A program made the translations under genes and the position numbers. Under the pieces are notes generated by a model. It made no database searches. It was not told the origin of the DNA and was given only the letters and a program-made list of their open reading frames with translations. From NCBI GenBank assembly GCA_016278415.1, contig JADQBV010000201.1, forward strand, positions 1-43,514: a stretch of 43,514 bases of DNA, written 5' to 3'. Positions 7,910 to 43,514 of this stretch are shown one piece after another. The DNA is from Halanaerobiales bacterium (GTDB taxonomy: Bacteria > Bacillota_F > Halanaerobiia > Halanaerobiales > DTU029). Positions within the stretch are counted from its first letter, which is position 1. Each line of letters starts with the position of its first letter.

Positions 7910-8075
7910 AGACGGATTGGATGTTAAATGGAAAGATGTAAAACGGTATAGCGGTTTTTTACTTTTTATACAGGACATAGTAACTATTTAGCGAAATATA
8001 TTATTATATTATAGAACATTAGTAATTTAGATTATTAACTCTAACTGAGTTCGGTAATATTAGATAATGTGGAAA
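7910..8075 (+). pseudogene. Decayed second copy of a phage holin-like gene tail, its terminator and the promoter beyond it
   Basis: The stretch TTGGATGTTAAATGG(A)AAGATG matches the end of the holin-like gene at 36.12 kb (residues LDVKW). About 40 bases are then missing relative to that copy. A damaged version of its terminator follows (CGGTATAGCGGTTTTTT against CCGCAGAAATGCGGTTTTTTT), then the shared strings CTTTTTAT.CAGGA and, 110 bases on, TCGGTAATATTA. In the other copy the last string is the -10 region of a promoter that drives a nuclease gene. Beyond these matches I see no gene in 7841-8094. Confidence 0.6.
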
Positions 8076-8094
8076 AAATTTTAAAACAAACTAT

Positions 8095-8440
8095 TGATAG
8101 TTAGGTAGTAGGCGGTAAGCATTTAGTTGAAGGGCTTGAGCCTCGAAATCATAGGCATTGGGCAAGGCCGATGCTGTCGACTGAGCAGAAGGCAACATTA
8201 TTGTAATCGATAAGCAAGAATACAATAACACCCTGGGGTCGGAGACCTCCGCATGCTATACTTAGATATGATATTGATAACTTGGGAGACCCTGTGATTT
8301 TTACTCAGAGAGATAGGATGTTTTCAAGCGATAACAAAGTAAGGGCATCTAATATTACAGGTAGTCGGATGACCGCATAGTACCGAGGAAGCGGAGACGG
8401 TTACACGAGATTGATCTTAAAAGAGAAACATATTCTGTAC
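8095..8440 (+). mobile_element. Group II intron fragment (domain I-like RNA, no reverse transcriptase)
   Basis: Several strings look like the conserved 5' half of bacterial group II introns: GACTGAGCAGAAGGCAAC, CGATAAGCAAGAATAC, AACACCC, CTTGGGAGACCC, and GGTAGTCGGAT...CATAGTACCGAGGAAGCGG just before the point where the intron-encoded protein normally starts. No reverse transcriptase reading frame follows, and I see no domain V hairpin or clear GTGYG 5' end. The element is therefore a truncated remnant that runs directly into an NTPase gene fragment. Recognition is from memory of the intron family, not from an alignment; the boundaries are approximate. Confidence 0.6.
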
Positions 8441-27807: not shown

Positions 27808-28665
27808 ATGAATGTGCCTTTTGAAATTGATTTAAAGGATAAAGTAGTAGTTGTGACTGGTGGTGGTGGAGTACTGGGTAGTATGTTTGCTAAAGCCCTG
27901 GCTAATTGTGGTGCTAAAATAGCAATATTAGATCTTAGAGAAGAGCAGGCAGATAAGGTTGCAGATGTCATAAACGAGGCAGGAGGTATTGCTATTGGTG
28001 TAGAAGCAAATGTGTTAAAAGTGGAAAGCTTAAGAGATGCTAGAAAAGTTGTTAATGAAAAACTTGGTCCCTGTGACATTTTACTAAATGGTGCTGGTGG
28101 TAATAATCCAAAGGGAACCACTACAAAAGAATATCTATTTCTTGAAGACCTGGAAGAATCTAAGGAAGAGATAACTACCTTCTTTGATCTTGACCCAGAA
28201 GGAGTACAGTTTGTATTTAATCTGAATTTTATTGGAACACTTTTACCTACACAGGTATTTGCGAAAGATATGGTCAAAAGGGAAGGCGTTACAGTCATTA
28301 ATATTTCTTCAATGAATGCCTTTACTCCATTAACGAAAATACCAGCATATAGTGGTGCCAAAGCAGCTGTAAGCAATTTTACCCAGTGGTTAGCAGTGCA
28401 TATGTCTAAGGTAGGTATTAGAGTCAATGCTCTAGCACCAGGATTTTTCTTGACAGAACAGAACCGTACTTTATTAACAAGTGAGGATGGTTCATATACT
28501 GAGCGGGCAGAGAAAATATTGAATCAGACACCAATGGGGAGATTTGGAGAACCCGAGGAACTTGTGGGAACATTACTATGGTTAGTCAGTGAAAAGGGTT
28601 CAGGCTTTGTCAATGGTACAGTTATCTCCGTAGATGGTGGGTTCTCAGCTTATTCTGGTGTCTAG
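27808..28665 (+). CDS. uxuB: SDR-family D-mannonate oxidoreductase (fructuronate reductase)
   Basis: A 285-residue short-chain dehydrogenase with the cofactor loop TGGGGVLGSMFA, the NGAGG motif, catalytic Ser in NISSMNAF and the Tyr-Lys pair YSGAK, and the usual C-terminal GTVISVDGG. It is of the Bacillus YjmF type, which reduces D-fructuronate to D-mannonate; it is unrelated in fold to the E. coli UxuB protein. The insert around residues 105-125 (NNPKGTTTKEYLFLE) is typical of this subgroup. It follows uxuA in the same direction and closes the sugar island. Confidence 0.88.
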   Translation: MNVPFEIDLKDKVVVVTGGGGVLGSMFAKALANCGAKIAILDLREEQADKVADVINEAGGIAIGVEANVLKVESLRDARKVVNEKLGPCDILLNGAGGNNPKGTTTKEYLFLEDLEESKEEITTFFDLDPEGVQFVFNLNFIGTLLPTQVFAKDMVKREGVTVINISSMNAFTPLTKIPAYSGAKAAVSNFTQWLAVHMSKVGIRVNALAPGFFLTEQNRTLLTSEDGSYTERAEKILNQTPMGRFGEPEELVGTLLWLVSEKGSGFVNGTVISVDGGFSAYSGV

Positions 28666-28701
28666 GCAAATATAAATTTTATTAGAAATTAAACACCCCA
28701 A

Positions 28702-28746
28702 CAGAAAGTGGGAAGATATGTAGTAAACATATTCTACCACTTTCTG
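28702..28746. other. Long perfect-arm hairpin after uxuB
   Basis: CAGAAAGTGG (28702-28711) pairs with CCACTTTCTG (28737-28746), with an inner ATATGT/ACATAT stem. No T-run follows on the plus strand, so it may be a 3'-end processing hairpin. From here to about 29040 the sequence is A/T-rich with no reading frame of note. Confidence 0.5.
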
Positions 28747-29040
28747 GTAATTAGGAAATCTGGAAACTGCTAAAAGCAATACAAATAAAGATATTAGATT
28801 TATTATTTCTCACATATTTTATCTTTAACAGTATTAATTCCATGCTTAACCAATAGTTTTCCCCCAATTAATTTCATTCACAGTATTCTATAACAATTCA
28901 TAAGAGTAGTCAGTAAATAGTCACATCAATCCCAAATTCTTCATATTAACGAGTCTTCTTTTTTGGTAAGGTAAAAAACTCATATAAAAAGTCTTATTTT
29001 TGATTAATATCGAAATACATTTATACTTTAATAAGGTAGA

Positions 29041-30170
29041 GCCTTCCTTCCGGACTAACTGGCTGCCTTATAATTTTGCCTAAATATGACCCCCAGTAAA
29101 TCCTCCAGCAAGCCAGTTTGCTCCCATGTCCGTCCTTATTCCCTACACTGTGCCGCGTTTTCTCCCATATCCCTTCCCCCAAAACCCTATCCCAACAATC
29201 CTCTTTCGAGACAGGCCGGCACAGACAAGGCGACCAAATAAGGTTGCATTGAAAATGGGGGAAGGGAACTTGGTAGACAACCCTTGGGACCATCTAAAAT
29301 GACGCATCAGTTTTAGATGTGTTCCCACACCGCTCCGGGAATAAGGACTGGTATTATAATTGTTCGAGGGGTTGGAATTCTGTCCGCTGCACTAACGTGC
29401 TCCCCGCTGACAGCCTTCCAACAGTCTCTATCGTAATCTGATTTTATCCCCCTCTTGCAGTACCCTCCAATCCTTCCTCCCGGAGTAAGGCCTTACGGGT
29501 ACCACCCCCAGGGGTTCTGCGCTAAATACTATTTACCGCCCAGTGGGAAAAAACCATCCACTGACCTCAGCAGACAGATAACCGGCCGCCGGTAAAATTA
29601 ACCACCGACCTGAGCATTTACTATTAGCCACCAGGGCAAATACTTTCATACTGTTTATAATTCTGGTCATAAATATCAAGTTCTTAACGCGACTAGTCTT
29701 ACTCGAACTGCAAAAAGCGCAGTACCAGTAAGTCTTAATTATGTAGGCCTATCTTTATTCCGATATTACCAGGGTAGTCCATCAGGTCAAACCAGATAAT
29801 TTATGAAGGCTATATATGAAGGCATCTGGTTTCACCTTAGTTTTCTCACTTTAATCACTTACTTAATATATGATCTATTCAAAAAAGACTATTCAAGTCT
29901 ACATTCCATGCGCACATCAAGAGCACGGCAGCCATTCCCGGCAAAGTAGTAGTATTATTACTTAGTCAAACTAATATATTATCATCATAATTTTAGGAAT
30001 AAAGCTGTCTCAGTCTTCAGGTTCCAGACAAAAGAGCACTGTCTTACACATCCTCATTGGTGAGCCAGCTTTAAGATGATCTCCTGTATGGCCGGGATTA
30101 GCTACCTAAGTAACCCCCGCCCAACCAGCCCATCTGCCCCCAGGGGGCTCCCTTTCTATTTCTTATGCCT
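29041..30170 (-). ncRNA. Candidate large structured non-coding RNA, family not recognised
   Basis: About 1.1 kb without a credible gene, visibly more G/C-rich than its flanks, and G/purine-rich when read on the minus strand. Nested perfect inverted repeats cover it: 29057-29064 with 29111-29118 (AACTGGCT), 29132-29143 with 29337-29348 (12 bp) enclosing 29171-29180 with 29257-29266 (10 bp), 29366-29371 with 29449-29454 enclosing 29371-29377 with 29416-29422 and 29380-29384 with 29409-29413, and 29460-29465 with 29497-29502. Further pairs (AAAGCTG/CAGCTTT and GCCCC/GGGGC) lie at 30.0-30.15 kb. Strand is inferred from purine bias only; boundaries are rough, and I found no convincing promoter or terminator. 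Large RNAs such as OLE, ROOL and GOLLD are of this kind, but I do not recognise their signatures. The rest of the gene-free interval (30171-30331) is A/T-rich with one 9-bp inverted repeat (TATTTCTTA/TAAGAAATA). Confidence 0.5.
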
Positions 30171-30331
30171 AAGAAATAAGAAACAAAAAGAATGTCATAG
30201 AAAGAACAATTATGTATGATTAATATTTTTATATATAATGTTTAATGCAACTAAATAACGAAACACTCCCATATTGTTGAGTAATATAAAAATGCACTTG
30301 ATAATAATATCTAACGATTTAAGGTGATAAT

Positions 30332-30380
30332 ATAACAAATATAATAAAATAATAACAAAAACGTTGACAAAAATAACAAA
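30332..30380. repeat. Three phased direct repeats ATAACAAA
   Basis: ATAACAAA occurs at 30332-30339, 30352-30359 and 30373-30380, spaced 20 and 21 bases. The third lies between the -35 and -10 boxes of the ietA promoter and the second just upstream of the -35, so they look like a helically phased regulator-binding array. Confidence 0.55.
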
Positions 30381-30393
30381 ATCGTGATAAAAT
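30364..30393 (+). promoter_or_regulatory. Promoter of the ietAS operon
   Basis: TTGACA (30364-30369), 18-base spacer ending in a TGN extended -10, then TAAAAT (30388-30393). Confidence 0.75.
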
Positions 30394-30421
30394 TAATAAT
30401 ATCTAAGGGGGTAATCAAAAA

Positions 30422-31516
30422 ATGTACACAGAAATAATTAAAATAATTGAAGGCGGTATAAAAGGTGATAAAGAGAAAGTATATAATTATTCAAAGGTCT
30501 TAGCAGACAATCTTGAAAAAACCGGAGATGCTTCTTTATCAAAAAAAATAAAATCTCTTCTAACAAATAAACGAACAAGGATGGTATCCTTAGATGAGTT
30601 TTCTACTAAACCTGTTGATACAGAAAGTCGTATGGATATGGTAGATATTTTTTTGGCAGATAAAAACTTCGAGAAACCTATCTTAAAACCATTTATTGAA
30701 GACGAAATTGAAGAGTTTATTAATAGTTATGATCATAGGGATGAAATACTTAAAGCGGGAATAGAAATGATTAGTTCTCTACTTTTATATGGACCTCCGG
30801 GTTGTGGCAAAACAACAGCAGCTAAATATATTGCATATAAGACAGGACTTCCTCTTGTAACTGTAAGGCTTGATGGACTAGTCTCTTCTTTATTAGGAAG
30901 CACAGCTAAAAATATAAGAAGAATATTTGAATATGCATCTAAAAGAGATTGTATTCTTTTTTTAGATGAATTTGATGTAGTAGCAAAGGTCCGTGATGAT
31001 AAGCATGAATTGGGCGAACTTAAGAGGGTGGTTAATAGCTTATTGCAAAATATAGACGACTTTAGTCAAAACAGTATACTCATCGCAGCGACTAATCACC
31101 ATGAACTATTGGATCCTGCTGTCTGGAGAAGATTTTCAAAAATTATTACTTTAGAGAAACCTGACAAAAATGAGATTAATCTACTATTAAAATCCTTAAT
31201 AAAAAATTCAAAAAGTAATGTGATAGAAAACGAGAAAAAGTTAGAATTAGTTGCATTAGCATTTGAAGGAATTAGTCATGCTGATATAAAAACAGTAGTA
31301 AATAATGCAATGAAAAAAGCCATTATTAATAATAGGGAAACAGCACATAACTGGAACTTTTTACATGAACTATATTTATATAAAAATCATAAAATTATTA
31401 GCGATAATGACTTTATAAAATTCTTGTTACAGTATGGGGTAACTCAAAAAGAAACTAATGAGAATTTTGATTACTCCATGAGGAAAGTAAGGGAAGTATC
31501 AAAGTTACCAGAATAA
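30422..31516 (+). CDS. ietA: AAA+ ATPase of an IetAS-type defence pair
   Basis: A 364-residue AAA+ protein. The Walker A is GPPGCGKT (residues 124-131), Walker B CILFLDEFD (about 178-186), sensor 1 AATNHH and arginine fingers WRRFSK follow, and there is an N-terminal helical region of about 95 residues. It is paired with a subtilisin-like protease 21 bases downstream. This ATPase/subtilase pairing matches IetA-IetS, first described as a plasmid-stability toxin-antitoxin pair in Agrobacterium and later reported among antiphage systems. AAGGGGG precedes the ATG. The ATPase probably controls the protease, but its trigger and targets are unknown. Promoter with phased repeats upstream, terminator after the protease. 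Confidence 0.82.
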   Translation: MYTEIIKIIEGGIKGDKEKVYNYSKVLADNLEKTGDASLSKKIKSLLTNKRTRMVSLDEFSTKPVDTESRMDMVDIFLADKNFEKPILKPFIEDEIEEFINSYDHRDEILKAGIEMISSLLLYGPPGCGKTTAAKYIAYKTGLPLVTVRLDGLVSSLLGSTAKNIRRIFEYASKRDCILFLDEFDVVAKVRDDKHELGELKRVVNSLLQNIDDFSQNSILIAATNHHELLDPAVWRRFSKIITLEKPDKNEINLLLKSLIKNSKSNVIENEKKLELVALAFEGISHADIKTVVNNAMKKAIINNRETAHNWNFLHELYLYKNHKIISDNDFIKFLLQYGVTQKETNENFDYSMRKVREVSKLPE

Positions 31517-31537
31517 TTATGGAGGGTGGTTTATATA

Positions 31538-33898
31538 ATGGTAGATGAAAGATTACCAATTAAATTTTTTGCAAAAAGAGAAGTAGATAATCAGAGGGTA
31601 GAGGGAGGAGGCAGTAGTGATCTTCCGGGGTTTGTTTTGACAGGAGAAGAATTAGTCAATAAATCAAGAGAATTGGTCAGTACGTTTAAAGAATTCAAAG
31701 AAAAAGTAATTAGAAAGGAGAAAGCGGAATCAATAATACCGGTTATTTTTAAAACAAAAATAATTGATGATGCTTCAGCTAAGACTCATAGACGTGAAGT
31801 AACTAATCTTTTTAGGATTGGAGCAGATGATAATAATATATTAGGTCTTGCTGAAGAGGACGAATTAATAATTAAATTGGATGATTTAAAGGAAACTGAA
31901 AAAATCATTGAAAAACTTAGTAATACACAAAGGTACGCCCACGCACTATCTAGTATTGATAGGATTGAGGAATTTAAACCTTTAATTGAGAAAGTTGAAA
32001 CTGAAGAGCTAATCGATTATAAGGTAAAGTTAGTTAATTTTCAAAATTATGAACAAAACAATGCTATTAGAAACTATTTTGAAAAGTCCATGAAAAATAT
32101 GGGTCTTAAAGTAAGGAAAACCAATTATACAGATAATCATATTATTTACAATATTCAATCTGTAAGTCTTGATACTTTCGAAGTTATAAATACAAATGAA
32201 GCATTCGAAGCAGTTTTTTCTATTGAACCAATGCCCAAATATATAGTCACTCTAGATATGGAAGAAGAGGAAGCAACGATTGATATTTCAACTCCGAAAA
32301 CAGGGGAGAAGTACACAACTGTAGGAATATTGGATAATGGAATTACTGATATCCCACATTTGAAACCATGGCTTACAGAAGAAAGTTATACGGCATACCC
32401 TGAACCATATATGAAAAAAAATCATGGAACATTTGTATCTGGTGTTGTTTTATATGGAGATAAACTTGAAGGTGAAGAATGGGTTGGGATAGAAGGCGTA
32501 AAGATATTAGATGCTTGCGTTTTCCCAGACACTGACAAAGAAGGTATTGATGAGGATGAACTGATTCGAAACATACAAGAAGCAATACATGCCCATCATG
32601 AAGAAGTTAAAATATGGAACTTATCTATAAGTATAAAAAGACCTGTAGATGAATATAGTTTTTCAGATTTCGCTATAGCTTTAGATGATTTGCAGGATAG
32701 GTATGATGTATTGATATGTAAATCTGCTGGTAACTGTAAAAATTTTATAAATGGTCGTCCAAAAGGTAAAATACATCATGGAGCTGATAGCGTTAGATCA
32801 ATAGTAGTTGGTTCAATTGCGCATAAGAAGGCATTATTAGACCTTGCCGAAGTAGATAACCCTTCTCCTTTTACTCGAATTGGTAGAGGGCCATCTTATA
32901 TCATTAAACCTGAAGTTGTTCATTATGGTGGTAATGCTGGAGTTAATGAAGAAGGAAAACTGCAAACAACAGGCGTGAAGTCATTCGGTATAGATGGTGC
33001 AATCAAACAATCTGTAGGAACTAGTTATTCTACTCCTCGTGTTGCTGCTCTTGCTGCTGGGTTATATCAAGAAATGGAAGAAGAATTTGATCCATTGTTA
33101 CTAAAAGCTTTGATGATACATTCATCCAGTTATTCAGAAAACTTAACAGTTCCCAGTACTGAAAGGGCAAATCAATTAGGGTTTGGAAAGCCACAATCAA
33201 CAAGAGAAATTCTTTATAATTCACCAAGTGAAGTGACTTTGATTTTAAGAGATGAGATTTCAAGAGGTGAATACATAGATATAATGGACTTTCCAATGCC
33301 TGATTGCCTTGTGGATGGGGATTATTATACTGGACAAGTAATTGTAACTTTAGTTTATAACCCGATATTAGATTCTTCTCAAAGGGCAGAATATTGTCAG
33401 TCAAATATTGATATAAAAATGGGAACTTATGATAAAAAGAAAGATAGGGATACAGCAAAAAGAAATATTCTTAATCCTGTAGGAAGAGATGGGTCACAAA
33501 ATTTATTGTTAGAAAGATGTTATAGTAAAAGAAAAATGAGAAAAAGCAATGATGATTTTGCTTTAAAAGAAAGACTTCTTATTAAATATGGTGATAAATT
33601 TTATCCAGTTAAGAAGTATGCGATTAATTTATCGGAGATGACAGATTCTAACCAGGTTAAGTATTTAAGCAAAGATAGAAGATGGTATTTATATCTAAGA
33701 AGTCTTTTTAGAGAACATATTGAAAAAAAATCACAAATAGAGGGAACAAATCCAAGCCAAGAGTTTTGTTTAGTGGTTACAGTAAAAGACCCAACAGGTA
33801 CAAAACCAGTCTATAATGAAGCAAATCAGAAATTAAATGAATATAACTTTTGGCATAACAACATTAAGCTCCACACAGATATTGCAATTCACAACTAG
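31538..33898 (+). CDS. ietS: Subtilisin-like serine protease of an IetAS-type defence pair
   Basis: A 786-residue S8 peptidase without signal peptide, thus cytoplasmic. The triad is complete: Asp266 (GILDNGI), His296 (NHGTFVSG) and Ser496 (GTSYSTPRVA), with the oxyanion Asn in KSAGN. About 260 residues of its own precede the peptidase domain, and about 230 follow it, including a jelly-roll-like region. Large N- and C-terminal parts and pairing with an AAA+ gene are typical of IetS rather than of secreted subtilases. ATG 31538 was preferred over GTG 31526; GGAGGGTGG lies upstream. The two genes form a two-cistron operon ending at the terminator at 33930. Confidence 0.85.
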   Translation: MVDERLPIKFFAKREVDNQRVEGGGSSDLPGFVLTGEELVNKSRELVSTFKEFKEKVIRKEKAESIIPVIFKTKIIDDASAKTHRREVTNLFRIGADDNNILGLAEEDELIIKLDDLKETEKIIEKLSNTQRYAHALSSIDRIEEFKPLIEKVETEELIDYKVKLVNFQNYEQNNAIRNYFEKSMKNMGLKVRKTNYTDNHIIYNIQSVSLDTFEVINTNEAFEAVFSIEPMPKYIVTLDMEEEEATIDISTPKTGEKYTTVGILDNGITDIPHLKPWLTEESYTAYPEPYMKKNHGTFVSGVVLYGDKLEGEEWVGIEGVKILDACVFPDTDKEGIDEDELIRNIQEAIHAHHEEVKIWNLSISIKRPVDEYSFSDFAIALDDLQDRYDVLICKSAGNCKNFINGRPKGKIHHGADSVRSIVVGSIAHKKALLDLAEVDNPSPFTRIGRGPSYIIKPEVVHYGGNAGVNEEGKLQTTGVKSFGIDGAIKQSVGTSYSTPRVAALAAGLYQEMEEEFDPLLLKALMIHSSSYSENLTVPSTERANQLGFGKPQSTREILYNSPSEVTLILRDEISRGEYIDIMDFPMPDCLVDGDYYTGQVIVTLVYNPILDSSQRAEYCQSNIDIKMGTYDKKKDRDTAKRNILNPVGRDGSQNLLLERCYSKRKMRKSNDDFALKERLLIKYGDKFYPVKKYAINLSEMTDSNQVKYLSKDRRWYLYLRSLFREHIEKKSQIEGTNPSQEFCLVVTVKDPTGTKPVYNEANQKLNEYNFWHNNIKLHTDIAIHN

Positions 33899-33975: not shown

Positions 33976-34212
33976 TTTGTAAGACTGTTGAAGTCAATGG
34001 GTTTAACATTTAGTAGATGTTAAGAATTAACCTTTCCAGAATCTGATTAATTTTAAAATATAAATTAACTTTTTTTGGTCTTTAATTGAAGGTGAAACAG
34101 TATTATCTATATAAATTGATTTTGCTGATAATCTAAGTAGCATTATTGACTTTGGTTGATAACAAAGATTATTCGAGCTCCTTTTCCCGTTCTTTCTATT
34201 ATACTGCCAACT

Positions 34213-34488
34213 GAGTAGCCAATTCCTTTATTTAAAAGAACAGGCGAAGCCCGTTTTCTGTAGGAATTGTCCACTCTACGCCCTGTCAAATGTTAAAAAC
34301 AGCACTTTTCCTTTAAGATTCACTAAACAGCATTCCCTCCAGACCGGCCGTTCCTCCTGCTGTTAACTTCATCTAAAAGATAAAGTCCAAGGGGATAGTA
34401 GAAAAGAAAATTCTAGTATTACTTATTATATTATTGTTTGTTTTTCTTTTAACTACCCCTAAGACATTTGACAGGGCTAACGCTGTCA
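34213..34488. other. Structured non-coding region upstream of the RadC-like gene
   Basis: GAGT...CAATTCC (34213-34226) pairs with GGAATTG...ACTC (34263-34276), a 4-bp and a 7-bp stem around a symmetric 3x3 internal loop, enclosing AACAGGC/GCCCGTT (34239-34245 and 34249-34255). The one mismatch of that inner stem becomes a G-U pair if the minus strand is the RNA. A 14-bp perfect inverted repeat joins 34280-34293 to 34464-34477. The latter competes with a local hairpin, 34469-34474 with 34483-34488, just before the RadC ribosome binding site. No gene is convincing here. Confidence 0.4.
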
Positions 34489-34526
34489 GTCTTCCTTTTG
34501 GCAAAATTTAAAGGAGCTGATTTTTG

Positions 34527-34955
34527 ATGAAGAAAGTTAGTATTAAGTTAGTTAAAGAAGCAGAATTAGATTATGGTGTAGACAGGCTTACATCACCGGC
34601 AGATGCAGCCAGGGTTGTAAGGAAATACATAGGAGATGTTGACCGTGAGATGTTTATAGTTATCTGTCTAGATATTAAGAATCAACTTAATTCTATCAAT
34701 ACAGTGAGTATTGGTACCTTGACATCATCCTTGAGTCATCCCAGGGAGATATTTAAGACTGCGATACTTTCAAATGCTGCAGCAATCCTAATTGCACATA
34801 ATCATCCCTCCGGAATTCCAGATCCAAGTAGAGATGATATTAATATTACTAAGAAGGTGGAAAAAGCTGGTGATATATTGGGTATAGAACTACTTGATCA
34901 CATTATTATTGGAGATTCATCTTTTCATAGTATGAAAGAACATAGTGATTTCTAA
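34527..34955 (+). CDS. RadC-like JAB/MPN domain protein
   Basis: A 142-residue protein consisting of the RadC (JAB/MPN+) domain only. It keeps the metal-binding signature HNHPSGIPDPSRDD (about residues 90-103) and the ending DHIIIGDSSFHSM. Chromosomal RadC proteins carry an additional N-terminal helix-hairpin-helix region, absent here; short versions are common in prophages and mobile elements. The family's biochemical role is unsettled despite the repair-based name. ATG 34527 was chosen with AAAGGAG at 34511-34517; TTG 34524 is possible. It sits next to phage lysis genes. Confidence 0.85.
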   Translation: MKKVSIKLVKEAELDYGVDRLTSPADAARVVRKYIGDVDREMFIVICLDIKNQLNSINTVSIGTLTSSLSHPREIFKTAILSNAAAILIAHNHPSGIPDPSRDDINITKKVEKAGDILGIELLDHIIIGDSSFHSMKEHSDF

Positions 34956-35234: not shown

Positions 35235-35783
35235 GTGAAAAATAAAATCATTGTTTTAGACCCTGGCCATGGTGGCCGGGACCCGGGAGCAACAGCAGAT
35301 GGCATTAATGAAAAAAATTTAAATCTAAGAATTACTGCCAGGTTATTTATTTTACTTAAAAATCTCGGATTTAAAGTGAAGATGACCAGATCTGATGATA
35401 GATATCTTTCTTTAGGAGATAGAGTTAAAATAGCTAACAATGTAAAAGCAGATATTTTTATCTCTATCCATTGTAATGCTGCCATTTCTAATAAAGCTAA
35501 TGGCATAGAAACATTATATTATCCTGGTAGTGATAAAGGAAAGATACTGGCTAAAGAAATTCAGAATACTTTAATTGATAAATTAAATAGGACTGATCGT
35601 GGGATTAAGACTAGACCTGATCTTTTTGTTTTGAAATATACCTCAATGCCAGCTGTATTGATTGAATGTGGATTTATAACTAATGCTGAAGAAAGGAAGT
35701 TATTAACTGCCGATAGATATAGAAATGATATTGCAGCTGCGATATCTGATGGAGTAGGTGAGTATTATAAAAAAATTAAATAG
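35235..35783 (+). CDS. N-acetylmuramoyl-L-alanine amidase (phage-type endolysin)
   Basis: A 182-residue Amidase_3 enzyme, which cuts the bond between N-acetylmuramic acid and L-alanine in peptidoglycan. Zinc ligands and catalytic residues are visible: His in DPGHGGRDPGA, Glu in INEKN, His in SIHCNA and Glu in IECGF. It is the bare catalytic domain with no signal peptide or wall-binding repeats, as expected for an endolysin that needs a holin. The start is GTG 35235 after a GGTGGTGGGT purine-rich stretch. The next gene, 15 bases on, has one N-terminal membrane segment, so the two form a lysis cassette, probably left from a prophage. Confidence 0.9.
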   Translation: MKNKIIVLDPGHGGRDPGATADGINEKNLNLRITARLFILLKNLGFKVKMTRSDDRYLSLGDRVKIANNVKADIFISIHCNAAISNKANGIETLYYPGSDKGKILAKEIQNTLIDKLNRTDRGIKTRPDLFVLKYTSMPAVLIECGFITNAEERKLLTADRYRNDIAAAISDGVGEYYKKIK

Positions 35784-35798
35784 AAAAGAGGTGAGATG

Positions 35799-36173
35799 AT
35801 GGATATTAATTGGAATATAATTAGTAATGTTGTATTAGCTTCAATACCAGCATTATCACTCTTATTTTTCTTTCTTAAACACTTTTTCCCTGGTACTGAT
35901 CCTTATTTACGAAAAGGAGCAGTTATCCTGGCAGAGGTTGATGATATTATTGATGGGGTTTTATTGAAATTGCCGGATAATAAATATATCAATACTATTA
36001 ACGATATTATCGACCAGGTATTAAAAGAACTTGAAGAGGCTGGCTATAAAGTAAGTAATCAGGATAAAAAGAAACTTTCATATCACATTAAGGGGAAAGT
36101 GAAGAAAGAAGAGGGACTGGATGTTAAATGGGAAGATGGTAAATTGAAATTAGGATATAACAAGAAGTTTTAG
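35799..36173 (+). CDS. Holin-like phage protein with one membrane segment
   Basis: A 124-residue protein with one hydrophobic segment at residues about 9-28 (SNVVLASIPALSLLFFFLKHFF) reduced to its core, then a charged, helical cytoplasmic tail ending LDVKWEDGKLKLGYNKKF. Position directly after the amidase suggests a holin or lysis accessory protein; the sequence alone does not prove it. GAGGTG lies 5 bases before ATG 35799 (ATG 35796 is also possible). The last codons, terminator and spacer recur in decayed form at 7.9-8.07 kb. Confidence 0.65.
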   Translation: MDINWNIISNVVLASIPALSLLFFFLKHFFPGTDPYLRKGAVILAEVDDIIDGVLLKLPDNKYINTINDIIDQVLKELEEAGYKVSNQDKKKLSYHIKGKVKKEEGLDVKWEDGKLKLGYNKKF

Positions 36174-36181
36174 TGATAGAG

Positions 36182-36204
36182 ACCGCAGAAATGCGGTTTT
36201 TTTC
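36182..36204 (+). terminator. Terminator of the lysis cassette
   Basis: ACCGCA-GAAA-TGCGGT (36182-36197) followed by a run of T. GNRA-type loop. Confidence 0.88.
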
Positions 36205-36336
36205 TTTTTATGCAGGAAATGGTACTTTTTTAGAGTATTATAATATTATAAAAAAGTACATAATTAAATGAAGTATATGTAATTTGATATACATTTTTAA
36301 TTATTTTAAGTAAATATAATAAAATATTTATAGTTA

Positions 36337-36404: not shown

Positions 36405-38675
36405 ATGATAGATAAAGATAAAGACTTAGGATTACAATTTATTGAATATACCTCTCCTTTTAAAGATTTATCTAGTGAAGAAATAAATAAATTACTGGAG
36501 GAAATAAGCCAAAAAGCAGAGAATGAATTAAAACAGTCAGTAGAACAGACTTTAACACTTATAAAACCATTTAGTATTGAAAATTTAGTTGGATGGTTTT
36601 CACTTTATTGTTTAACTCAACCTTATGGGGATGTAATTAATGAGTTCAATGATAATAGATTAAAACAATTTCAAGTTGAATTACTCCAAGCATTAGCTTT
36701 AAAAAAAGAAATAAATAATGATATTGACTGGCGTCCAATTTTACCTCCTGATGTTGAGAAAGTAAGTAATCTTTTAATAAGTATATCTGAATCCTTTGCT
36801 TTATGTAGATTGAACAGTATTAATTCTAAAGATGAAGAAGAAAAAAAACAATTATTCATAATGGAGACAATTAGATCATCTACAATGGCTGTAAGAAATT
36901 GGGCTTACCCTGACCAAATCATAAAAGTTCTCAAGGGCTTATTTATAAATATTGATAACGATGTAGAAGAATCTTATGGATATAGTATATTAGGATTAAT
37001 AGTTATGAACATAAATATCATTAAAAAAATAGAAGAAAGAACTACAAAACATACTAAAAAATCAAGTAGAATTTATAATTCAAAAAATGTAGAAGAAGTA
37101 ATAGATAATTATATTTCTGCATACCCCGATATAGAAACAACTAAGAAAGATTTAATACAATTAAGCAATAAATTTAATAGTAAAGAAGATTTCACTAATG
37201 CCTTAATATTACATACAGATTTATTTATAGAAGAAATATATAAATTAAGTGTTTCTGATTTTATTGAAGCTTATCCTAAAGATATTGAAGAAAAAGTTAT
37301 AAAAAAAGTCTTAAATATTTGGTCTTTTGAAAAAGGAGAATTAGTTGATTATCCATATGAATATTTATTTTTGGGAAATCCTATATGGGAAAAACCTTTA
37401 ATTAAATTAGAAGAAAACTTATATTTCTGGCCTATACCAGGATTGTTTTATCATAGTAATATGAGACTAATGGAAAAGGTTTTTGAGAAAGATTTGAAAT
37501 TAAAAGAAAAATATGAGAAATATAGAGGAAAATACTTAGAAGACACAGTAGAAAAGCTTTTTAATGAAACTTTTCCAGAAGCAAAAATATATAAAGGTAG
37601 TATTTGGCATCATGAAGAAACGGATAAGGATTTTGAAAATGATTTGTTAGTTATTATTGAAAATTATGCAATTGTTATTGAAGCTAAAGCAGGAAAAATC
37701 ACAGATTCAGCAAGAAGAGGAGCACCAAAAAGATTAAAAAATGAGATAGAAAAATTACTAGTTGATCCTTCAATTCAAGCAAGAAGGTTTGCTAAGTTTT
37801 TAGAAAATAATTCAGGAATACACGAATTTTCTAATATTAATGGAGAAACCTATTCTGTTGATTTATCAAATACAAATAATATTTTAACATTAGGTGTTAC
37901 ACTAGAATTATTTGGTCCGTTAGCAACTAATATGCCTGAATTATATAAAGGTGGTTTTATTGAAAATAAAGAAGATCTGTCACCTAACATGTCTTTAACA
38001 GATTTGGAACTAATATTTGATTTATTAGAAACTTCTATAGAAAAACTTCATTATTTTATTAGAAGAGATCAGTTTGAAAGAAACGCTAATTATTTTGCTG
38101 ATGAAATAGATTTACTGGCTTTTTATTTAAAAACTGGGTTTAATATTGGAAGTAGTGAGTTTGAAGAAAAAGAGTTAAATTTTTACGGGTTATCAAAAAC
38201 CGAAGAACTAGAACACTATTTATTATATAGAAATGATGATAATGTAGAAACTGAAAAGCCTAAACCATTAAGAACTAAATGGTGGAACGATATCATATTA
38301 AAACTAGAACAGAAAAAAATATCTCATTGGACAGATTCAGCATATATGTTATTAAATGTTAGCTATGAAGATCAAATTGAATTTGAAGATATGTTTAGTA
38401 AAGTAAAAGAGAGTGTGAAAATAGAGTGGAAAAAAGAAGGACATCTTAACTCAGTTATATTGTTTAATGGACCGGAGGAACGAAAAGATTTAATTATTGG
38501 ATTTGCATATAAAAGAAAAAGTAGAGAAAAAAGAAATAATATGATCAAAGATATTGCAACAGAACAAATGGAAAAATACAATCAAGATAAAGCCTTAATA
38601 ATTGGGATTGATGTCGATAAATCTGATTATCATTATCCATATAGCATTTTAGCACTAGTTGCACGTGATTATTAG
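36405..38675 (+). CDS. Uncharacterised 756-residue protein with a PD-(D/E)XK nuclease core
   Basis: I do not recognise the full-length family. Residues 375-430 show a restriction-nuclease-type core: Glu379 in KYLEDTV on the first helix, Asp413 in ENDLLV, and Glu426-Ala-Lys428 in VIEAKAG, spaced as in NERD/Mrr-like PD-(D/E)XK folds. About 370 residues, mostly helical, precede it and about 320, also helical and charged, follow. No membrane segment or HTH is obvious. GAGGTGA sits before the ATG and a promoter lies 40 bases further up. It lies between a phage lysis cassette and genes of restriction type, suggesting a DNA-targeting defence effector. DNA cleavage and target choice are inference. 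Confidence 0.7.
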   Translation: MIDKDKDLGLQFIEYTSPFKDLSSEEINKLLEEISQKAENELKQSVEQTLTLIKPFSIENLVGWFSLYCLTQPYGDVINEFNDNRLKQFQVELLQALALKKEINNDIDWRPILPPDVEKVSNLLISISESFALCRLNSINSKDEEEKKQLFIMETIRSSTMAVRNWAYPDQIIKVLKGLFINIDNDVEESYGYSILGLIVMNINIIKKIEERTTKHTKKSSRIYNSKNVEEVIDNYISAYPDIETTKKDLIQLSNKFNSKEDFTNALILHTDLFIEEIYKLSVSDFIEAYPKDIEEKVIKKVLNIWSFEKGELVDYPYEYLFLGNPIWEKPLIKLEENLYFWPIPGLFYHSNMRLMEKVFEKDLKLKEKYEKYRGKYLEDTVEKLFNETFPEAKIYKGSIWHHEETDKDFENDLLVIIENYAIVIEAKAGKITDSARRGAPKRLKNEIEKLLVDPSIQARRFAKFLENNSGIHEFSNINGETYSVDLSNTNNILTLGVTLELFGPLATNMPELYKGGFIENKEDLSPNMSLTDLELIFDLLETSIEKLHYFIRRDQFERNANYFADEIDLLAFYLKTGFNIGSSEFEEKELNFYGLSKTEELEHYLLYRNDDNVETEKPKPLRTKWWNDIILKLEQKKISHWTDSAYMLLNVSYEDQIEFEDMFSKVKESVKIEWKKEGHLNSVILFNGPEERKDLIIGFAYKRKSREKRNNMIKDIATEQMEKYNQDKALIIGIDVDKSDYHYPYSILALVARDY

Positions 38676-38708
38676 GTACTTCCTTTAACAGCAAGGTTTC
38701 TGGCTCCA

Positions 38709-38788
38709 CTAACGTTTCACCCAAATCCAAGGGCCTAACATAAGAGCTATGTAAGGCCCTTGAACTTCAAAAACCTGCGGGACGTTAG
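38709..38788. repeat. 80-bp element with inverted ends and a 15-bp hairpin
   Basis: CTAACGT (38709-38715) and ACGTTAG (38782-38788) form the ends. Inside, CAAGGGCCTAACATA (38728-38742) pairs with TATGTAAGGCCCTTG (38748-38762) with one mismatch around AGAGC. It recalls an integron attC or a small palindromic mobile element, but arm spacing is uneven and the core sites do not fit the attC consensus well. It lacks a T-run, so it is not an ordinary terminator. Confidence 0.5.
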
Positions 38789-38833
38789 CCATAATGGTAC
38801 TTGAATAAGCCAGTATTTTAGAAAGGAGATAAA

Positions 38834-39403
38834 ATGACAGATCTAAGTGAAGCTATAAAAAAATCATCAGATGAGTATAAAAAGTGGTTTAATAAAAACA
38901 AAAAATTAATAGAATTACTTGGATTAGAATGGAATGATGCAGCACAATATCGTAATCAAATTGATAAAATTCAGGAAGATATTAATAGATTTAATAAAGT
39001 TATAATTATGTTTATTAGTATAACTCTTAGTTTGCTATTAATACTTTCCATTGCTAACTTTATAATACGAAGAGATATTATTAAAATGTCTTATTTTATA
39101 GCTTATTATTTAGGATTAATAGGATCCTTTCTAGTTTCTTATGGTTACTTATTACAATTAAAAAATATTAATACACAAAAAAAGAACAGAAACATGAGTC
39201 TGCCAAACATACCACTGAATAATAATGAGATGCCCATATATGCTTCTCGACTTAATGAATTTTTGGTAAATTATATTAATAATGAATTTAGAAGTAATTG
39301 GCCTAGGCTAAAAATCGAAATTAGAAAGCAGAAATCATTATTTTGGGGATTTATAATTATTTCTATTAGCTTTTTGATTCAGTTAGTTTTGCAATTCTTT
39401 TAA
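38834..39403 (+). CDS. Uncharacterised protein with three membrane segments
   Basis: A 189-residue protein of unknown family. A charged N-terminal helix (residues 1-50) is followed by hydrophobic segments at about 55-75, 84-104 and 168-187, with a hydrophilic stretch of about 60 residues between the second and third. AAAGGAG precedes the ATG at 38834. It stands alone between hairpin elements, with 158 bases before and 120 after. Small multi-TM proteins next to nuclease or ATPase genes are often membrane-perturbing effectors of defence systems, but nothing in the sequence proves this. Confidence 0.65.
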   Translation: MTDLSEAIKKSSDEYKKWFNKNKKLIELLGLEWNDAAQYRNQIDKIQEDINRFNKVIIMFISITLSLLLILSIANFIIRRDIIKMSYFIAYYLGLIGSFLVSYGYLLQLKNINTQKKNRNMSLPNIPLNNNEMPIYASRLNEFLVNYINNEFRSNWPRLKIEIRKQKSLFWGFIIISISFLIQLVLQFF

Positions 39404-39524
39404 TTAATTAAGGTGTATAGTATTTGGGTAATGACTACCCGATAAAATGGAACTAAAGATTCCAATATGGTTTTATTAAAATTTCTGGACGCCATACTAC
39501 ATCTAAACAAAGGGGGATAACTTT

Positions 39525-40175
39525 ATGGCTGAAAAAGAAAAAAATAAATTATTAGAATGTGGACATTGTTGTAATAAAGCTCCAATGAAGGTTGTCACTG
39601 AATATAATGATACAGTTGAAGTTGGTACTCCTCCTTATACAGATGCTTTCCATAAATTATGGCAAATATTATTATGCCCAGTTTGTCACAAACCAATATT
39701 ATATGAAACTAGTTGGAATACTTTTGATTTAGATTTTGAGACAGGTCCAGAATATAATAAAAAAATTTTATACCCAAATTCAAATGTGACTACAGATGGG
39801 TTACCAGAAAAGGTAAAAAAATCATATGAGGCAGCTTTAAGTGTAAGAAATATTGAGCCAAATGCTTTTGCAGTATTAATTGGACGAACATTAGAATTTA
39901 TATGTAAAGATAGAAAAATAACCGGTAATAATTTGTATAATAAAATCGATGAACTTGCTCAAAAAAGAGAGATACCAGGAAGGTTTGCAGATATGGCACA
40001 TAAGTTAAGAGTATTAAGAAATATAGGTGCCCATGCAGATGAAGATGAAATAACAGAAGTAGATGTACCAATTTTGCTGGAATTTACTGAATCAATTCTG
40101 GATTATATTTATAGACTTCCAGCAAAATTAGAAAAAATAGAAAAACGAATTGAACAAAAAAATAACAGAAATTAA
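39525..40175 (+). CDS. DUF4145 protein with N-terminal zinc ribbon
   Basis: A 216-residue protein. Cys12-x2-Cys15 and Cys51-x2-Cys54 form a zinc ribbon. The helical part, about residues 95-200, carries the DUF4145 pattern (AFAVLIGRTLEFICKDRKI... KLRVLRNIGAHADEDEIT). DUF4145 proteins are of unknown activity and are often encoded beside restriction-modification or other defence genes. AAAGGGGGAT lies before the ATG. The next gene starts 39 bases after the stop, so these two may be co-transcribed. Confidence 0.85.
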   Translation: MAEKEKNKLLECGHCCNKAPMKVVTEYNDTVEVGTPPYTDAFHKLWQILLCPVCHKPILYETSWNTFDLDFETGPEYNKKILYPNSNVTTDGLPEKVKKSYEAALSVRNIEPNAFAVLIGRTLEFICKDRKITGNNLYNKIDELAQKREIPGRFADMAHKLRVLRNIGAHADEDEITEVDVPILLEFTESILDYIYRLPAKLEKIEKRIEQKNNRN

Positions 40176-40214
40176 GTGTAATGGAAGATTGCAAAGTTTT
40201 TAGAAGAAAGAGTG

Positions 40215-40781
40215 ATGACAATTAAACAACAAATTATTCTTTTATTAATTGGTGCTGCTATTGGTTTTATATCTAGTATAGGAACTACTATAGTTGCTGA
40301 AATACTTAAAAGACAAGGAAAAGTAAAAATTTATTATAAAATAGTTTTTTCTAAGGAGCGCAATGATAAAACATGGGGGTTTTTCAGAAGTAATAATGAA
40401 ATAATTTTTGAAATCCCTATGTGGGTAGAATTGCAAAACACTTCAAATGCTGTTCATGTAATTAGGGATTTGAATATATTACTTTTTAAAGGTGAAAAGC
40501 AAATTACTCAAATGACTCAAATTAACAAAGTCAATGATACCTGGTATGGGAATGATGGGGCATATTCGTTTGTTCTTCAACCAAGAAGTATTAAAAAATA
40601 TGACTTACATTTTTCCATTAAAAAAAGTGAACTGATTGATAATTATAATTTTGATAAAATAAAATTGAGATATTTTGATGAAAAGGATAAAAAACATATT
40701 TTTACATTAACTAAATTGGAAAAATGCTGGGATTTGGGTAATTTAAATAGAAATAGTAAGTGGAAACTTGCAATTCATTAA
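40215..40781 (+). CDS. Uncharacterised membrane-anchored protein
   Basis: A 188-residue protein with one N-terminal hydrophobic segment (about residues 6-28, with few positive charges before it) followed by a basic stretch and a beta-rich domain of about 150 residues. No family recognised. ATG 40215 and GTG 40212 are both possible; the AGAAAGAG upstream is a weak ribosome binding site, which fits translation following the DUF4145 gene. The 190 bases after it hold only imperfect inverted repeats (AGCTTAG...CTAAGCT). Confidence 0.6.
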   Translation: MTIKQQIILLLIGAAIGFISSIGTTIVAEILKRQGKVKIYYKIVFSKERNDKTWGFFRSNNEIIFEIPMWVELQNTSNAVHVIRDLNILLFKGEKQITQMTQINKVNDTWYGNDGAYSFVLQPRSIKKYDLHFSIKKSELIDNYNFDKIKLRYFDEKDKKHIFTLTKLEKCWDLGNLNRNSKWKLAIH

Positions 40782-40973
40782 TGTTAATCTCCTAATTATT
40801 TTATATTATTTATCTGTATCAAATGTAATTGTGCCTAAATTACTTTAAACGTGAGCTTAGTTTTCGCTACACTGCACTCATTCAAGGATCTAAGCTAAGT
40901 TATAACTAGGGTTCATGAATTTCTTAAGCACGCGTGATGCTGTATTTAAAAATTACTAAAGTGGAGGTCTATT

Positions 40974-41222
40974 ATGAAAGGTAAAATAACAAAAATCAAT
41001 TCAAGAAAAGGCTTTGTAGCTATATTGACTGAGAATAATGATTATACTGTTATTGAAATATTAGGAAATTATTATCTTGAGGTAGGCGATATTATTAAAG
41101 GTAATCTTGACTCACTAGGGCGTGAATCTTTATATAATGTATCTCAAGATGAAGAAATTGATGTTTTTGTTCAAGAAATTTATGCGTCAAAGGAAATATT
41201 GGAAAGTTTAATGAATAGGTAG
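40974..41222 (+). CDS. Small OB/S1-like uncharacterised protein
   Basis: An 82-residue protein whose strand pattern (GKITKINSRKGFVAILTENNDYTVIEILG, here shortened in meaning to a beta-barrel start, then VGDIIKGNLDSLG) resembles short OB-fold or S1-like nucleic-acid-binding proteins. GGAGG at 40963-40967 and normal spacing support the ATG. Family not known to me; the fold is inference. It lies alone, 81 bases before the first Nudix gene. Confidence 0.6.
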   Translation: MKGKITKINSRKGFVAILTENNDYTVIEILGNYYLEVGDIIKGNLDSLGRESLYNVSQDEEIDVFVQEIYASKEILESLMNR

Positions 41223-41303
41223 TAAAAGTGTCATTATGTATTAACCATATCCATAAATCTAATCAGTCACTTATACAATTATATTAGAAAGGACACAATT
41301 CAC

Positions 41304-41687
41304 ATGATTTCAGTAAATTTTTATGATAAAAATGAAATAGATGAAGAACAAATAAAGTTTTCTGTTATAACAGCATTTTATCAGGACAAACTGATTGTTG
41401 TTAGGCATAAAGACCGATTAACCTGGGAAATACCAGGTGGCCATAAAGAAGAGGATGAGACCAGCGAAGAAACTGCAAAGAGAGAATTATTTGAAGAGAC
41501 TGGTGCTACAACATTTGACTTAGAGTGGATATGTACTTATTCGGTTAATAGAGATGGAGAAGAAAAATCATATGGACAGCTTTTTTTAGCCCATGTAAAT
41601 GAACTTGGCGAATTACCAGAATCAGAAATAGTAGAGATTAAACTTGTTAATGATTTACCAGAAGATCTAACTTATCCTGCAATATAA
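41304..41687 (+). CDS. Nudix hydrolase 1, probably truncated by a nonsense change
   Basis: A 127-residue Nudix protein with a full Nudix box at about residues 44-67 (GGHKEEDETSEETAKRELF, then EETGA), so metal-dependent hydrolysis of a nucleoside diphosphate derivative is likely. The reading ends DLTYPAI and TAA (41685-41687). The same frame goes on PHLYKKVSNYIGKY to TAA 41730-41732, just as expected for the C-terminus of the YtkD-like group where a Gln normally follows the Ile. A single C-to-T change (CAA to TAA) would explain this. Activity may survive, since the catalytic box is intact. AAAGGA precedes the ATG. Confidence 0.82.
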   Translation: MISVNFYDKNEIDEEQIKFSVITAFYQDKLIVVRHKDRLTWEIPGGHKEEDETSEETAKRELFEETGATTFDLEWICTYSVNRDGEEKSYGQLFLAHVNELGELPESEIVEIKLVNDLPEDLTYPAI

Positions 41688-41742
41688 CCACATTTATATA
41701 AAAAAGTTTCTAACTATATTGGTAAATATTAAGGATGATATA

Positions 41743-42153
41743 ATGACTAGTACAAAAAGAGAACCTTATAGATATCCAGTCTCAATTAAAGGGATAATAT
41801 CATTTAAAAATAAAATACTGCTTTTGAAAAATGAAAGAGAAGAATGGGAGTTGCCCGGAGGAAAATTAGAGTTGAATGAAGATCCAAAAGAATGTCTAGA
41901 AAGAGAGATATTGGAAGAGGTTAACATTAAAATAAAAGTTACTGATATTATTGATTCCTGGGTATATACAATTTTTGATAAAAAACATGTTTTAATTATA
42001 ACTTATGCTTGCTCTAAAATTAAAAGTGATAAGTTTCAGATTAGTAATGAGCATAATGGAGGAAAATGGTTCACATTAGAAGAAATAGAAGAGATAAATA
42101 TGCCCACTGGATATAAAAAATCAATTAAAACCTGGTACGAAATAAATAATTAA
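41743..42153 (+). CDS. Nudix hydrolase 2
   Basis: A 136-residue Nudix protein; the box is GGKLELNEDPKECLEREIL followed by EEVNI (about residues 43-66). It differs enough from the preceding Nudix gene not to be a recent duplication. ATG 41743 follows AAGG eight bases upstream and lies only 10 bases after the second stop of Nudix gene 1, so the two are translated from one message. Substrate unknown; possible roles are nucleotide-pool cleaning or breakdown of nucleotide signals. Confidence 0.85.
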   Translation: MTSTKREPYRYPVSIKGIISFKNKILLLKNEREEWELPGGKLELNEDPKECLEREILEEVNIKIKVTDIIDSWVYTIFDKKHVLIITYACSKIKSDKFQISNEHNGGKWFTLEEIEEINMPTGYKKSIKTWYEINN

Positions 42154-42245
42154 TCTTACATCAGAAATAGAAAGATATTCAAACAAACTACTATTTCATA
42201 AAATGATTTATCTTTTCCTTAAAGTTCCTATCAGTTTATTTCCCT

Positions 42246-42272
42246 TTCCTGCTATAAAAAGCAGGAATTTTT
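42246..42272 (+). terminator. Terminator after the Nudix genes
   Basis: TTCCTGCT (42246-42253) with AGCAGGAA (42260-42267), loop ATAAAA, then five T. Confidence 0.85.
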
Positions 42273-42325
42273 CACTTTATATATAATTTTATATATGTAT
42301 ATTGTAATTTAGGGGGCAGAATTAA

Positions 42326-43514
42326 ATGGAGAATAAAATAAGATTACAGAAACTGCTTAAAGAACTATTTCAGTTTGATAATGCTGATCTGGACTTTGGC
42401 ATATATAGAATTATGAATCAAAAACATGATGAAATAGAAGAATTTATTAATAAAGAATTAATTGATTATATAGAAGAACAATTATCTCAAATTGAGAGCA
42501 AAGATAAAGAAGATTTAGAAGTAGAATTAGAAAAAGTAAAAGAAGAAGCAAGTCATTTAGGTTTTGATTATACCCAGTCACCCAAATATATAAGTATAAA
42601 AGAAAAAATGGCTCAGTATAAAATTGGTGAAAATCTGGAATCTGAAATTTATAATGATATTTATACGTTCTTCAAACGTTATTATGATAATGGCGATTTC
42701 CTATCAAAACGACGTTATTCCAGCAAAGACAAATATGCTATTCCCTATAATGGTGAAGAGGTACATTTGCATTGGGCTAATTACGACCAATATTATATTA
42801 AAACAAGCGAAGATTTCAACAATTACAGTTTTAAGAAAAACAATATAACTGTTAATTTCAAAATTAAAAATGCAGAGGTAGACAAAAATAATAATAAATC
42901 TGATGAAGACCGTTATTTTGTTCTTAAAGAAAAAGAATATCTCAATTATGATGATAATTTAAAAGTTTTGAATATATATTTTGAATATCGTAATCTAACA
43001 AGTAAAGAGAAGAAGAGATATAAAACGAGAAATACTCAGGCAGATATTAGAGAATCCATAGAAAAGGATATCAGTAATAAAATAAAAAAGGATAATGAGC
43101 TTTTCCAGAAACTAAGCTGGTTATTAAGTGATAATAATAAAGTAAAATCTATACTGGCTAAACATCTATATAAATACACAATTAAGAACAAATCAGACTA
43201 CTTTATTCATAAAGATTTAAAGGGTTTCCTGGAAAGAGAATTGGATTTCTTTATAAAAAATGAAATATTAGATGTCGATGCCATTGGTTCTGCAACCGAA
43301 AAGAATATCAGTACATATATTACCAGAGTAAGGGTAATTGAAGCAGTTACTCAGAAGATTATTAACTTTCTGGCTCAAATAGAGAACTTTCAAAAGAAAC
43401 TCTTTGAGAAGAAGAAAATAGTTTTACAGGATGAATATTGTTTAACTCTGGATAGGATCCCAGAAAAAATTAGAGAAAAGATCCTAAACCAAGTGTTAAA
43501 TAACGAGGGCCAAA
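42326..43514 (+). CDS. Large adenine-specific DNA methyltransferase (type III RM Mod-like), N-terminal part
   Basis: The frame from ATG 42326 (GGGGG at 42312-42316) stays open to the window edge, 396 codons. The opening LKELFQFDNADLDFGIYRIMN, here in two conserved blocks (FQFDNADLDFG and IYRIMN), the segment VHLHWANYDQYYIKT and the segment KNKSDYFIHKDLKGFL are characteristic of the roughly 1000-residue methyltransferases of type III-like restriction-modification systems. The catalytic NPPY-type motif would lie beyond the window, as would any restriction (helicase-nuclease) partner. It closes the visible part of the defence island. Confidence 0.8.
   Translation, partial: MENKIRLQKLLKELFQFDNADLDFGIYRIMNQKHDEIEEFINKELIDYIEEQLSQIESKDKEDLEVELEKVKEEASHLGFDYTQSPKYISIKEKMAQYKIGENLESEIYNDIYTFFKRYYDNGDFLSKRRYSSKDKYAIPYNGEEVHLHWANYDQYYIKTSEDFNNYSFKKNNITVNFKIKNAEVDKNNNKSDEDRYFVLKEKEYLNYDDNLKVLNIYFEYRNLTSKEKKRYKTRNTQADIRESIEKDISNKIKKDNELFQKLSWLLSDNNKVKSILAKHLYKYTIKNKSDYFIHKDLKGFLERELDFFIKNEILDVDAIGSATEKNISTYITRVRVIEAVTQKIINFLAQIENFQKKLFEKKKIVLQDEYCLTLDRIPEKIREKILNQVLNNEGQ

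Follow-up and report, generated by a model that had tools for sequence, protein, structure and literature searches.

Prophage hot spots for defence genes hold varying cargo between conserved blocks with phage-type genes. GOLLD and ROOL are phage-borne RNAs that are often found near tRNA islands and form RNA-only cages, according to passages of a study (PMC12286853) that describe the functions of GOLLD, ROOL and OLE as poorly understood.

Positions 29041-30170 of the window, i.e., of the whole stretch of 43,514 nucleotides analysed here, had been described in an earlier note as a possible unrecognised large structured RNA that resembled the OLE, ROOL and GOLLD class in raw sequence but could not be assigned to any of them. 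The host, a Halanaerobiales bacterium, is a salt-loving anaerobe. Judging from comparisons of sequences, it is essentially right that this stretch holds one copy of an unlisted large structured RNA family, so the suggestion is supported as regards the family, but only about 220 of the 1130 bases are shown to be homologous to its wider membership.

The new RNA resembles GOLLD in its carriage by phages and prophages, in the combination of a conserved 3′ region with a variable 5′ region and in a length of up to about 900 nt (features given for GOLLD in passages of PMC12286853), as well as in the tRNA array that lies beside one copy (G664:C4 only). Unlike GOLLD, it was found only in Halanaerobiia and one viral contig, has no Rfam match up to E 5 and has, in addition, been retained at a locus of a bacterium where cargo is exchangeable. 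With ROOL, as portrayed in the same passages (PMC12286853), it shares the carriage by phages and prophages, the large size, the many helices and the lack of a known protein partner; unlike ROOL, it has a dispensable 5′ half and, again, no Rfam match. OLE is likewise a large structured RNA, mainly of extremophile Gram-positive bacteria (PMC12286853, in part), but the new RNA has no Rfam match that would join it to OLE. As at the prophage defence hot spots, the cargo at the window site varies, a defence pair being one example, and is flanked by conserved blocks that contain phage-type genes; unlike in those hot spots, the site is bordered on both sides by structured non-coding blocks.

Searches for Known RNA Families

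The earlier failure to assign the RNA to a known class was borne out by the Rfam 15 scan, which gave no match at gathering score in positions 28660-30430 and, up to E 5, only two matches, both far below gathering. Hits to snoRNA, miRNA and small-RNA families, which appeared when E values as high as 5 were allowed, were rejected because their scores were far below the gathering scores. The scanned relatives contained no large-RNA family of Rfam at gathering score. The covariance models of GOLLD, ROOL, OLE and HEARO found no match at gathering score in the window and the scanned relatives, and no match up to E 5 in 28660-30430, L150:8795-10060 and L188:2690-3230. Among the papers listed on GOLLD, ROOL, OLE and large RNAs and on noncoding RNA of Halanaerobium and its relatives, with few subscription journals covered, none was seen to describe the family.

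The phage and prophage carriage, the tRNA islands and the conserved 3′ and less conserved 5′ regions reported for GOLLD (PMC12286853, in part) could suggest that the RNA belongs to GOLLD or ROOL but has diverged so far that the Rfam models miss it. This seems highly improbable, as no match up to E 5 was obtained for the window, G661 and G662 sequences, a comparison made on model scores only and not on helix connectivity.

Group II intron models found nothing in 28660-30430, and their sole match in the window was a group II intron D1-D4-6 hit at 8023-8248 on the plus strand (73.6 bits, Rfam), far from the RNA; no other Rfam family reached its gathering score in the window. Positions 7909-8025, just before this match, resemble positions 36109-36267, beyond a gene for a 125-aa protein described below.

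Composition and Folding of the Stretch

The G/C content of 29041-30170 is 45.4%, compared to 32.6% for the whole window, which places the stretch first among 4239 stretches of the same length and confirms the raised G/C noticed before. The purine richness reported for one strand is present on the minus strand, but it is a mild bias of 55%. The claim of more than 1 kb free of genes also held: the sole open reading frame of at least 80 aa (29021-29293, minus strand, 90 aa) has a counterpart in the genome G567 with 51% protein identity over 45 residues, compared to 80% DNA identity over 732 columns, and, since the protein identity is below the DNA identity, the frame does not look coding. On the same grounds, a decayed coding element, one of the outcomes that the earlier note had proposed to look for, was rejected.

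Two nested perfect 12-bp inverted repeats are present, with the arms 29132-29143 and 29337-29348 enclosing the arms 29170-29181 and 29256-29267; the nesting had been recognised earlier, with the inner pair taken as 10 bp instead of 12 bp. Dinucleotide-preserving shuffles contained on average 0.022 such 12-bp pairs within 300 nt, and two pairs were reached in 2 of 500 shuffles. The minus strand of 29025-30180 folds with an energy of about -400 kcal/mol, and an excess of folding, the absence of which had also been looked for, is found on both strands (z -5.9 for the minus and -4.8 for the plus strand, 40 shuffles each). With 60 shuffles of the minus strand, the excess is concentrated in 29130-29350 (z -5.4) and is weaker in the flanks (z -2.0 for 29352-29600 and z -2.5 for 29752-30180).

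Relatives of the RNA

The class sampled comprises 59 genomes, and we infer it to be Halanaerobiia from the Halanaerobium saccharolyticum loci L002 and L003 in genomes G634 and G635. The relatives were reached through a protein of the sugar island near the RNA and then through a FapA-domain protein, which led to genomes G587 and G567, both with strong DNA matches. The window DNA matches six of the 59 genomes; the G661 copy used as a query matches eight, and the covariance model R1 finds the same eight. The union of the searches places the RNA family in nine of the 59 genomes (G402, G567, G587 and G661-G666). The IMG/VR contig L153 also carries it and is the only viral contig found.

In a sample of 398 genomes from the phylum, only G567 and G402, both Halanaerobiia, were matched. 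Among 391 genomes of the class of G001, one weak R1 match was obtained (G685, 27.4 bits), which was missed by a second model, R2. Both searches used strict filters and scored seven candidates per genome, so weak relatives may have been missed. The G685 match (L237, 1321-1487, minus strand) lies in repeat-rich non-coding DNA and has C- and G-runs arranged as in helix P3, described below.

The model R2, whose E-values are rough, was built from ten copies with the window and G567 excluded. Its score is 106.1 bits (E 1.8e-23) for the window, at 29157-29329 on the minus strand, and 118.3 bits for G567; further matches outside the training set are G665:C4 (79.5 bits) and the two halves of the copy in G664:C8 (left 70.5 and right 47.2 bits). 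Thus, the core of the window copy is shown to belong to the RNA family.

BLASTN searches of phages and plasmids with the window RNA, and with the G661 RNA, yielded no match. In the order of G001, 40 of 225 genomes were matched with E up to 0.01; among the matches listed, these were short (about 24-50 bases) and were judged to be due to chance. Among the viral contigs suggested by pattern searches, only L153 is a relative, three others having the pattern within open reading frames, and 13 more (9 + 4) shared at most about 20-26 matching bases.

Structure of the RNA Family

The fuller members are about 450-900 nt long and comprise a variable 5′ half, a conserved core with helices P1-P4, and helices P5 and P6. 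The following elements were distinguished in the window copy, all on the minus strand:

29130-29350, minus strand: core, containing helices P1-P4; this stretch has homology to the wider family (R2 match, alignment, consensus fold, z -5.4)
29132-29143 and 29337-29348, minus strand: arms of P1, the outer perfect 12-bp pair (inverted repeat)
29170-29181 and 29256-29267, minus strand: arms of P3, the inner perfect 12-bp pair, enclosing the hairpin P4 and a G-run segment
29285-29327, minus strand: hairpin P2 (coordinates obtained by counting alignment columns)

The stem of P2 varies between copies, the loop ACTGATGCGTCATT being largely kept; 8 of its 15 pairs show a two-sided change and 98.6% of the cells are paired. 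The RNAalifold consensus of 13 aligned cores contains 48 pairs, 19 of which show a two-sided change that keeps the pairing (kinship being ignored). In the alignment A4, consisting of 14 copies and leaning towards the structure of R1, to which it was fitted, 95.6% of the cells pair, compared to 88.8% in shuffles, and two-sided changes occur in 13 of 41 pairs, compared to 6.8 (sd 1.4) in shuffles, none of 500 shuffles reaching this number. With slid partners, 43-61% of the cells pair. The number of further pair types, 27, shows no excess over the shuffles (26.6). A lack of covariation among homologues had been another outcome to look for, and two-sided changes that keep the pairs are present.

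The cells of the core contain 44 G.U and 7 A.C combinations, and the pairs that alternate between Watson-Crick and another combination number 12 for G.U and 6 for A.C; this excess of G.U over A.C favours an RNA of the minus strand. It also argues against an explanation in which the pairing serves the DNA, for instance where single-stranded DNA folds up to provide a site for recombination, packaging or replication. Folded single-strand DNA sites usually need less than 450-900 nt, and the RNA, with its internal insertions, is large for such a site; its 3′ end is also terminator-like. The exchange of cargo beside the RNA and the equally strong folding excess of the complementary strand would fit a DNA site, and we nevertheless consider such a role very unlikely compared to that of a minus-strand RNA.

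The 3′ domain that follows the core contains, in eight relatives, 38 pairs, 24 of which show a kept two-sided change (kinship again ignored). The P5 stem is rewritten between copies, but its internal loop (TAC...GTAG sides) stays; P6 is a terminator-like stem with the nine-base loop GTGGTTGTG or a close variant. A BLASTN comparison with G661 found nothing credible corresponding to P5 and P6 in the window. The 5′ half of the long form, compared in six copies, covaries only slightly, in 7 of its 74 pairs (covariation term +2.59). It includes a nearly invariant stretch (GGAGGAACGCAAGNATGAGTAGTCC; GTCAAGGAGGAACGCAAGNATGAGTAGTCC) at about 9250-9650 of L150 and at the counterpart positions, which could be the loop of a hairpin or, alternatively, a site where ribosomes bind before a tiny reading frame. 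The relatives fold with z-scores of -8.3 (G661, 831 nt) and -8.6 (G662, 451 nt), and the opposite strand scores similarly.

A pattern of G-runs that fits the standard G-quadruplex motif occurs in 12 of 13 cores. In the window, G-runs surround a TTT on the 3′ side of P3 (about 29157-29190). From the G-runs beside P3, a quadruplex could arise, or a purine triplex that includes the C-run of P3; a quadruplex could compete with P3.

Phage and Prophage Settings

By the genes around them, several copies of the RNA family reside in phages or prophages. In G661, the RNA follows the portal gene, with the terminase upstream and the major head protein downstream; in G666, it also follows the portal gene, and in L153 the terminase and portal genes. 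Holin and endolysin genes come directly after the RNA in G402. In G664:C4, the RNA lies between the gene for the 125-aa protein and an integrase gene, beyond which seven tRNA genes are located. The prophage RNA of G663 has lysis-side genes on one flank and replication-side genes on the other; the prophage includes integrase, DnaD-like and holin genes, and the integrase gene adjoins one tRNA gene. Scanning a few proteins in G662 and G665 revealed no phage gene next to the RNA. The short forms, two in G662 and one in G663, have nearly identical interiors and different flanks, which is expected for a mobile gene.

The RNA in G664:C8 lies in two halves separated by 47.6 kb, and the contig encodes terminase, portal, tape measure, Rep_3 and partition proteins. 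A prophage may have inserted into this RNA, but none of the ten scanned proteins is an integrase and the Rep_3 and partition genes are present, so that a rearranged phage-plasmid is equally likely.

The location of the RNA within the morphogenesis operon and on the same strand in G661, G666 and L153, as well as its place directly before the holin gene in G402, could be read as signs of a cis-acting RNA of phage late operons, involved in antitermination, processing or translation of the adjoining genes; the invariant GGAGGAACGCAAGNATGAGTAGTCC could then be the ribosome-binding site of a tiny reading frame. The neighbours, however, vary between copies (head, lysis, integrase and replication sides), the window RNA points away from the genes for the ATPase IetA and the RadC-like protein, and the end of P6 resembles a terminator, so that a cis-acting role appears unlikely. 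The varied positions in phage genomes, the terminator-like end and the conserved loops suggest a trans-acting accessory RNA.

The Locus in the Window

The RNA had been placed between a sugar island and a defence island, which is not simply so: it borders a prophage-derived locus (RadC, amidase and the 125-aa protein) with exchangeable cargo, here IetAS. The features of this locus are as follows:

29027-29142, minus strand: 3′ block of the RNA, kept in G567 (two copies) and G587
29352-29736, minus strand: middle block, kept in G567 copy 1, with 29455-29521 also in copy 2
29752-30220, minus strand: 5′ block, kept in G587, with 30123-30205 also in G567 copy 1
30341-30370, minus strand: promoter-like site for a minus-strand transcript (consensus match only)
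30422-31516, plus strand: IetA (PADLOC E 1.7e-139)
31526-33898, plus strand: IetS (PADLOC E 0)
34176-34500, no strand assigned: a further non-coding block with strong folding, preceding the RadC-like gene (z -4.5 minus, -5.0 plus)
34524-34955, plus strand: RadC-like JAB-domain gene (Pfam PF04002, PHROG 10276)
35235-35783, plus strand: endolysin-type amidase, Amidase_3 (Pfam PF01520, PHROG 435 endolysin)
35796-36173, plus strand: gene for a 125-aa protein (no Pfam, PHROGs or NCBIfam match)

The promoter-like site is overlapped by a plus-strand site before ietA (TTGACA-18-TAAAAT, 30364-30393), so that divergent sigma-70-like sites overlap in 30341-30393; these are consensus matches only, with 16 sites found and 5.8 expected from shuffles. 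A terminator-like site, also a consensus match only, precedes the core on the minus strand (29577-29554). The adjacent IetA ATPase and IetS subtilase constitute an IetAS defence pair, with NCBIfam matches below the equivalog cut-offs.

IetAS is absent from G587, where a block matching 29752-30220 is followed by 11 bases and then by a block matching 34176 onwards. An insert of 4.2 kb splits the RNA of G567 copy 1 between the matches to 29736 and 30123 and contains two DUF3231 genes and a COQ7/rubrerythrin-like gene, and G567 copy 2 has a gene for a 774-aa beta-propeller-repeat protein between the RNA blocks and the block matching 34177. These differing inserts indicate that the site exchanges cargo and that the RNA there is sometimes incomplete. 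The non-core blocks of the window RNA are common to only two relatives, in which they assort independently; neither G587 nor G567 copy 2 has the core, and the remainder in G587 has no folding excess (z -0.06).

Between the window and G567, the changed pairs of the core comprise seven kept and five broken pairs in the window fold, and six kept and nine broken pairs in the G567 fold; in the other RNA blocks, more changed pairs are broken than kept in comparisons with the relatives. As core pairs are kept about as often as they are broken and the others are mostly broken, a pairing constraint on copies of the window type is unsupported. Together with the blocks lost in G587 and G567 copy 2 and the cargo interrupting G567 copy 1, this broken pairing outside the core would be expected if the window copy were a non-functional remnant and only the phage copies worked. 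The window core nevertheless has a z-score of -5.4 and 106 bits with the independent model R2, and P1, P2 and P3 are kept perfectly or nearly so; we regard the remnant explanation as a serious one that falls somewhat short of an even chance.

The block at 34176-34500 is present in 3 of the 59 genomes (twice in G567, in G587 and as a short piece in G500). It contains a 14-bp long-range pair. Of the pairs changed between the window and G567 copy 2, 10 are kept in this block and 6-8 are broken, and the block may represent a separate RNA. Homology of this block to the 5′ half of the long form, suggested by one shared word, was not borne out by BLASTN. In G567:C6, the block leading into the RadC-like gene occurs at 55777-56334 and 72994-73551, two sequences 17 kb apart and 99.6% identical, which suggests a recent duplication or conversion at the site.

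The gene for the 125-aa protein has relatives in, among other named organisms, Orenia, Natroniella and a Halanaerobiales bacterium. It was found in 17 of the 59 genomes: in all nine with the RNA and in 8 of the 50 others (Fisher p 1.9e-6, kinship ignored). In six of the nine (G402, G567, G661, G662, G663 and G664), it lies on the same contig as an RNA block and at most 8 kb from it. Positions 36405-43513 of the window likely contain more defence genes, including one for a NERD-domain protein; others encode a weakly PD-T7-4-like protein (39525-40175) and a type III methyltransferase-like protein (42326).

Discussion

On the ground of the demonstrated core homology, base pairing, phage context of several copies and exchange of cargo, we consider it probable that the minus strand of about 29030-30200 represents one member of a family of large RNAs that is not yet listed, which would be a phage accessory of Halanaerobiia kept here at a prophage-derived locus. 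Phages and prophages of Halanaerobiia carry the RNA at several places in the genome, like accessory genes, and the window copy sits at a locus of prophage origin, with the cargo, presently IetAS, exchanged beside it. The RNA itself would be transcribed on its own and, as we infer, act in trans while the phage grows or is maintained as a lysogen. Its most probable mode of action, by analogy with what is reported for GOLLD and ROOL, would be that of a structural RNA, as a scaffold or by self-assembly; taken alone, this step is tentative, and we would rather bet against it than on it.

A bolder and more doubtful proposal is that the family represents a new class of self-assembling phage RNA, perhaps forming a closed multimer in the manner of GOLLD and ROOL, and has also been retained by the host at the locus of prophage origin; the RNA there would be oriented divergently from anti-phage genes and may share a control region with them, and the conserved hairpin loops and the G-runs beside P3 would then be contact or switch elements.

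Classes of large complex bacterial RNAs are few, and the family would add a candidate to those of poorly understood function. Its short form, with about 450 nt, has a convenient size for probing and structural work. The site in the window shows defence genes being exchanged beside a large structured RNA, and a phage-borne class without a detectable relation to GOLLD, ROOL and OLE but with a similar lifestyle would lead to the question of what such RNAs share.
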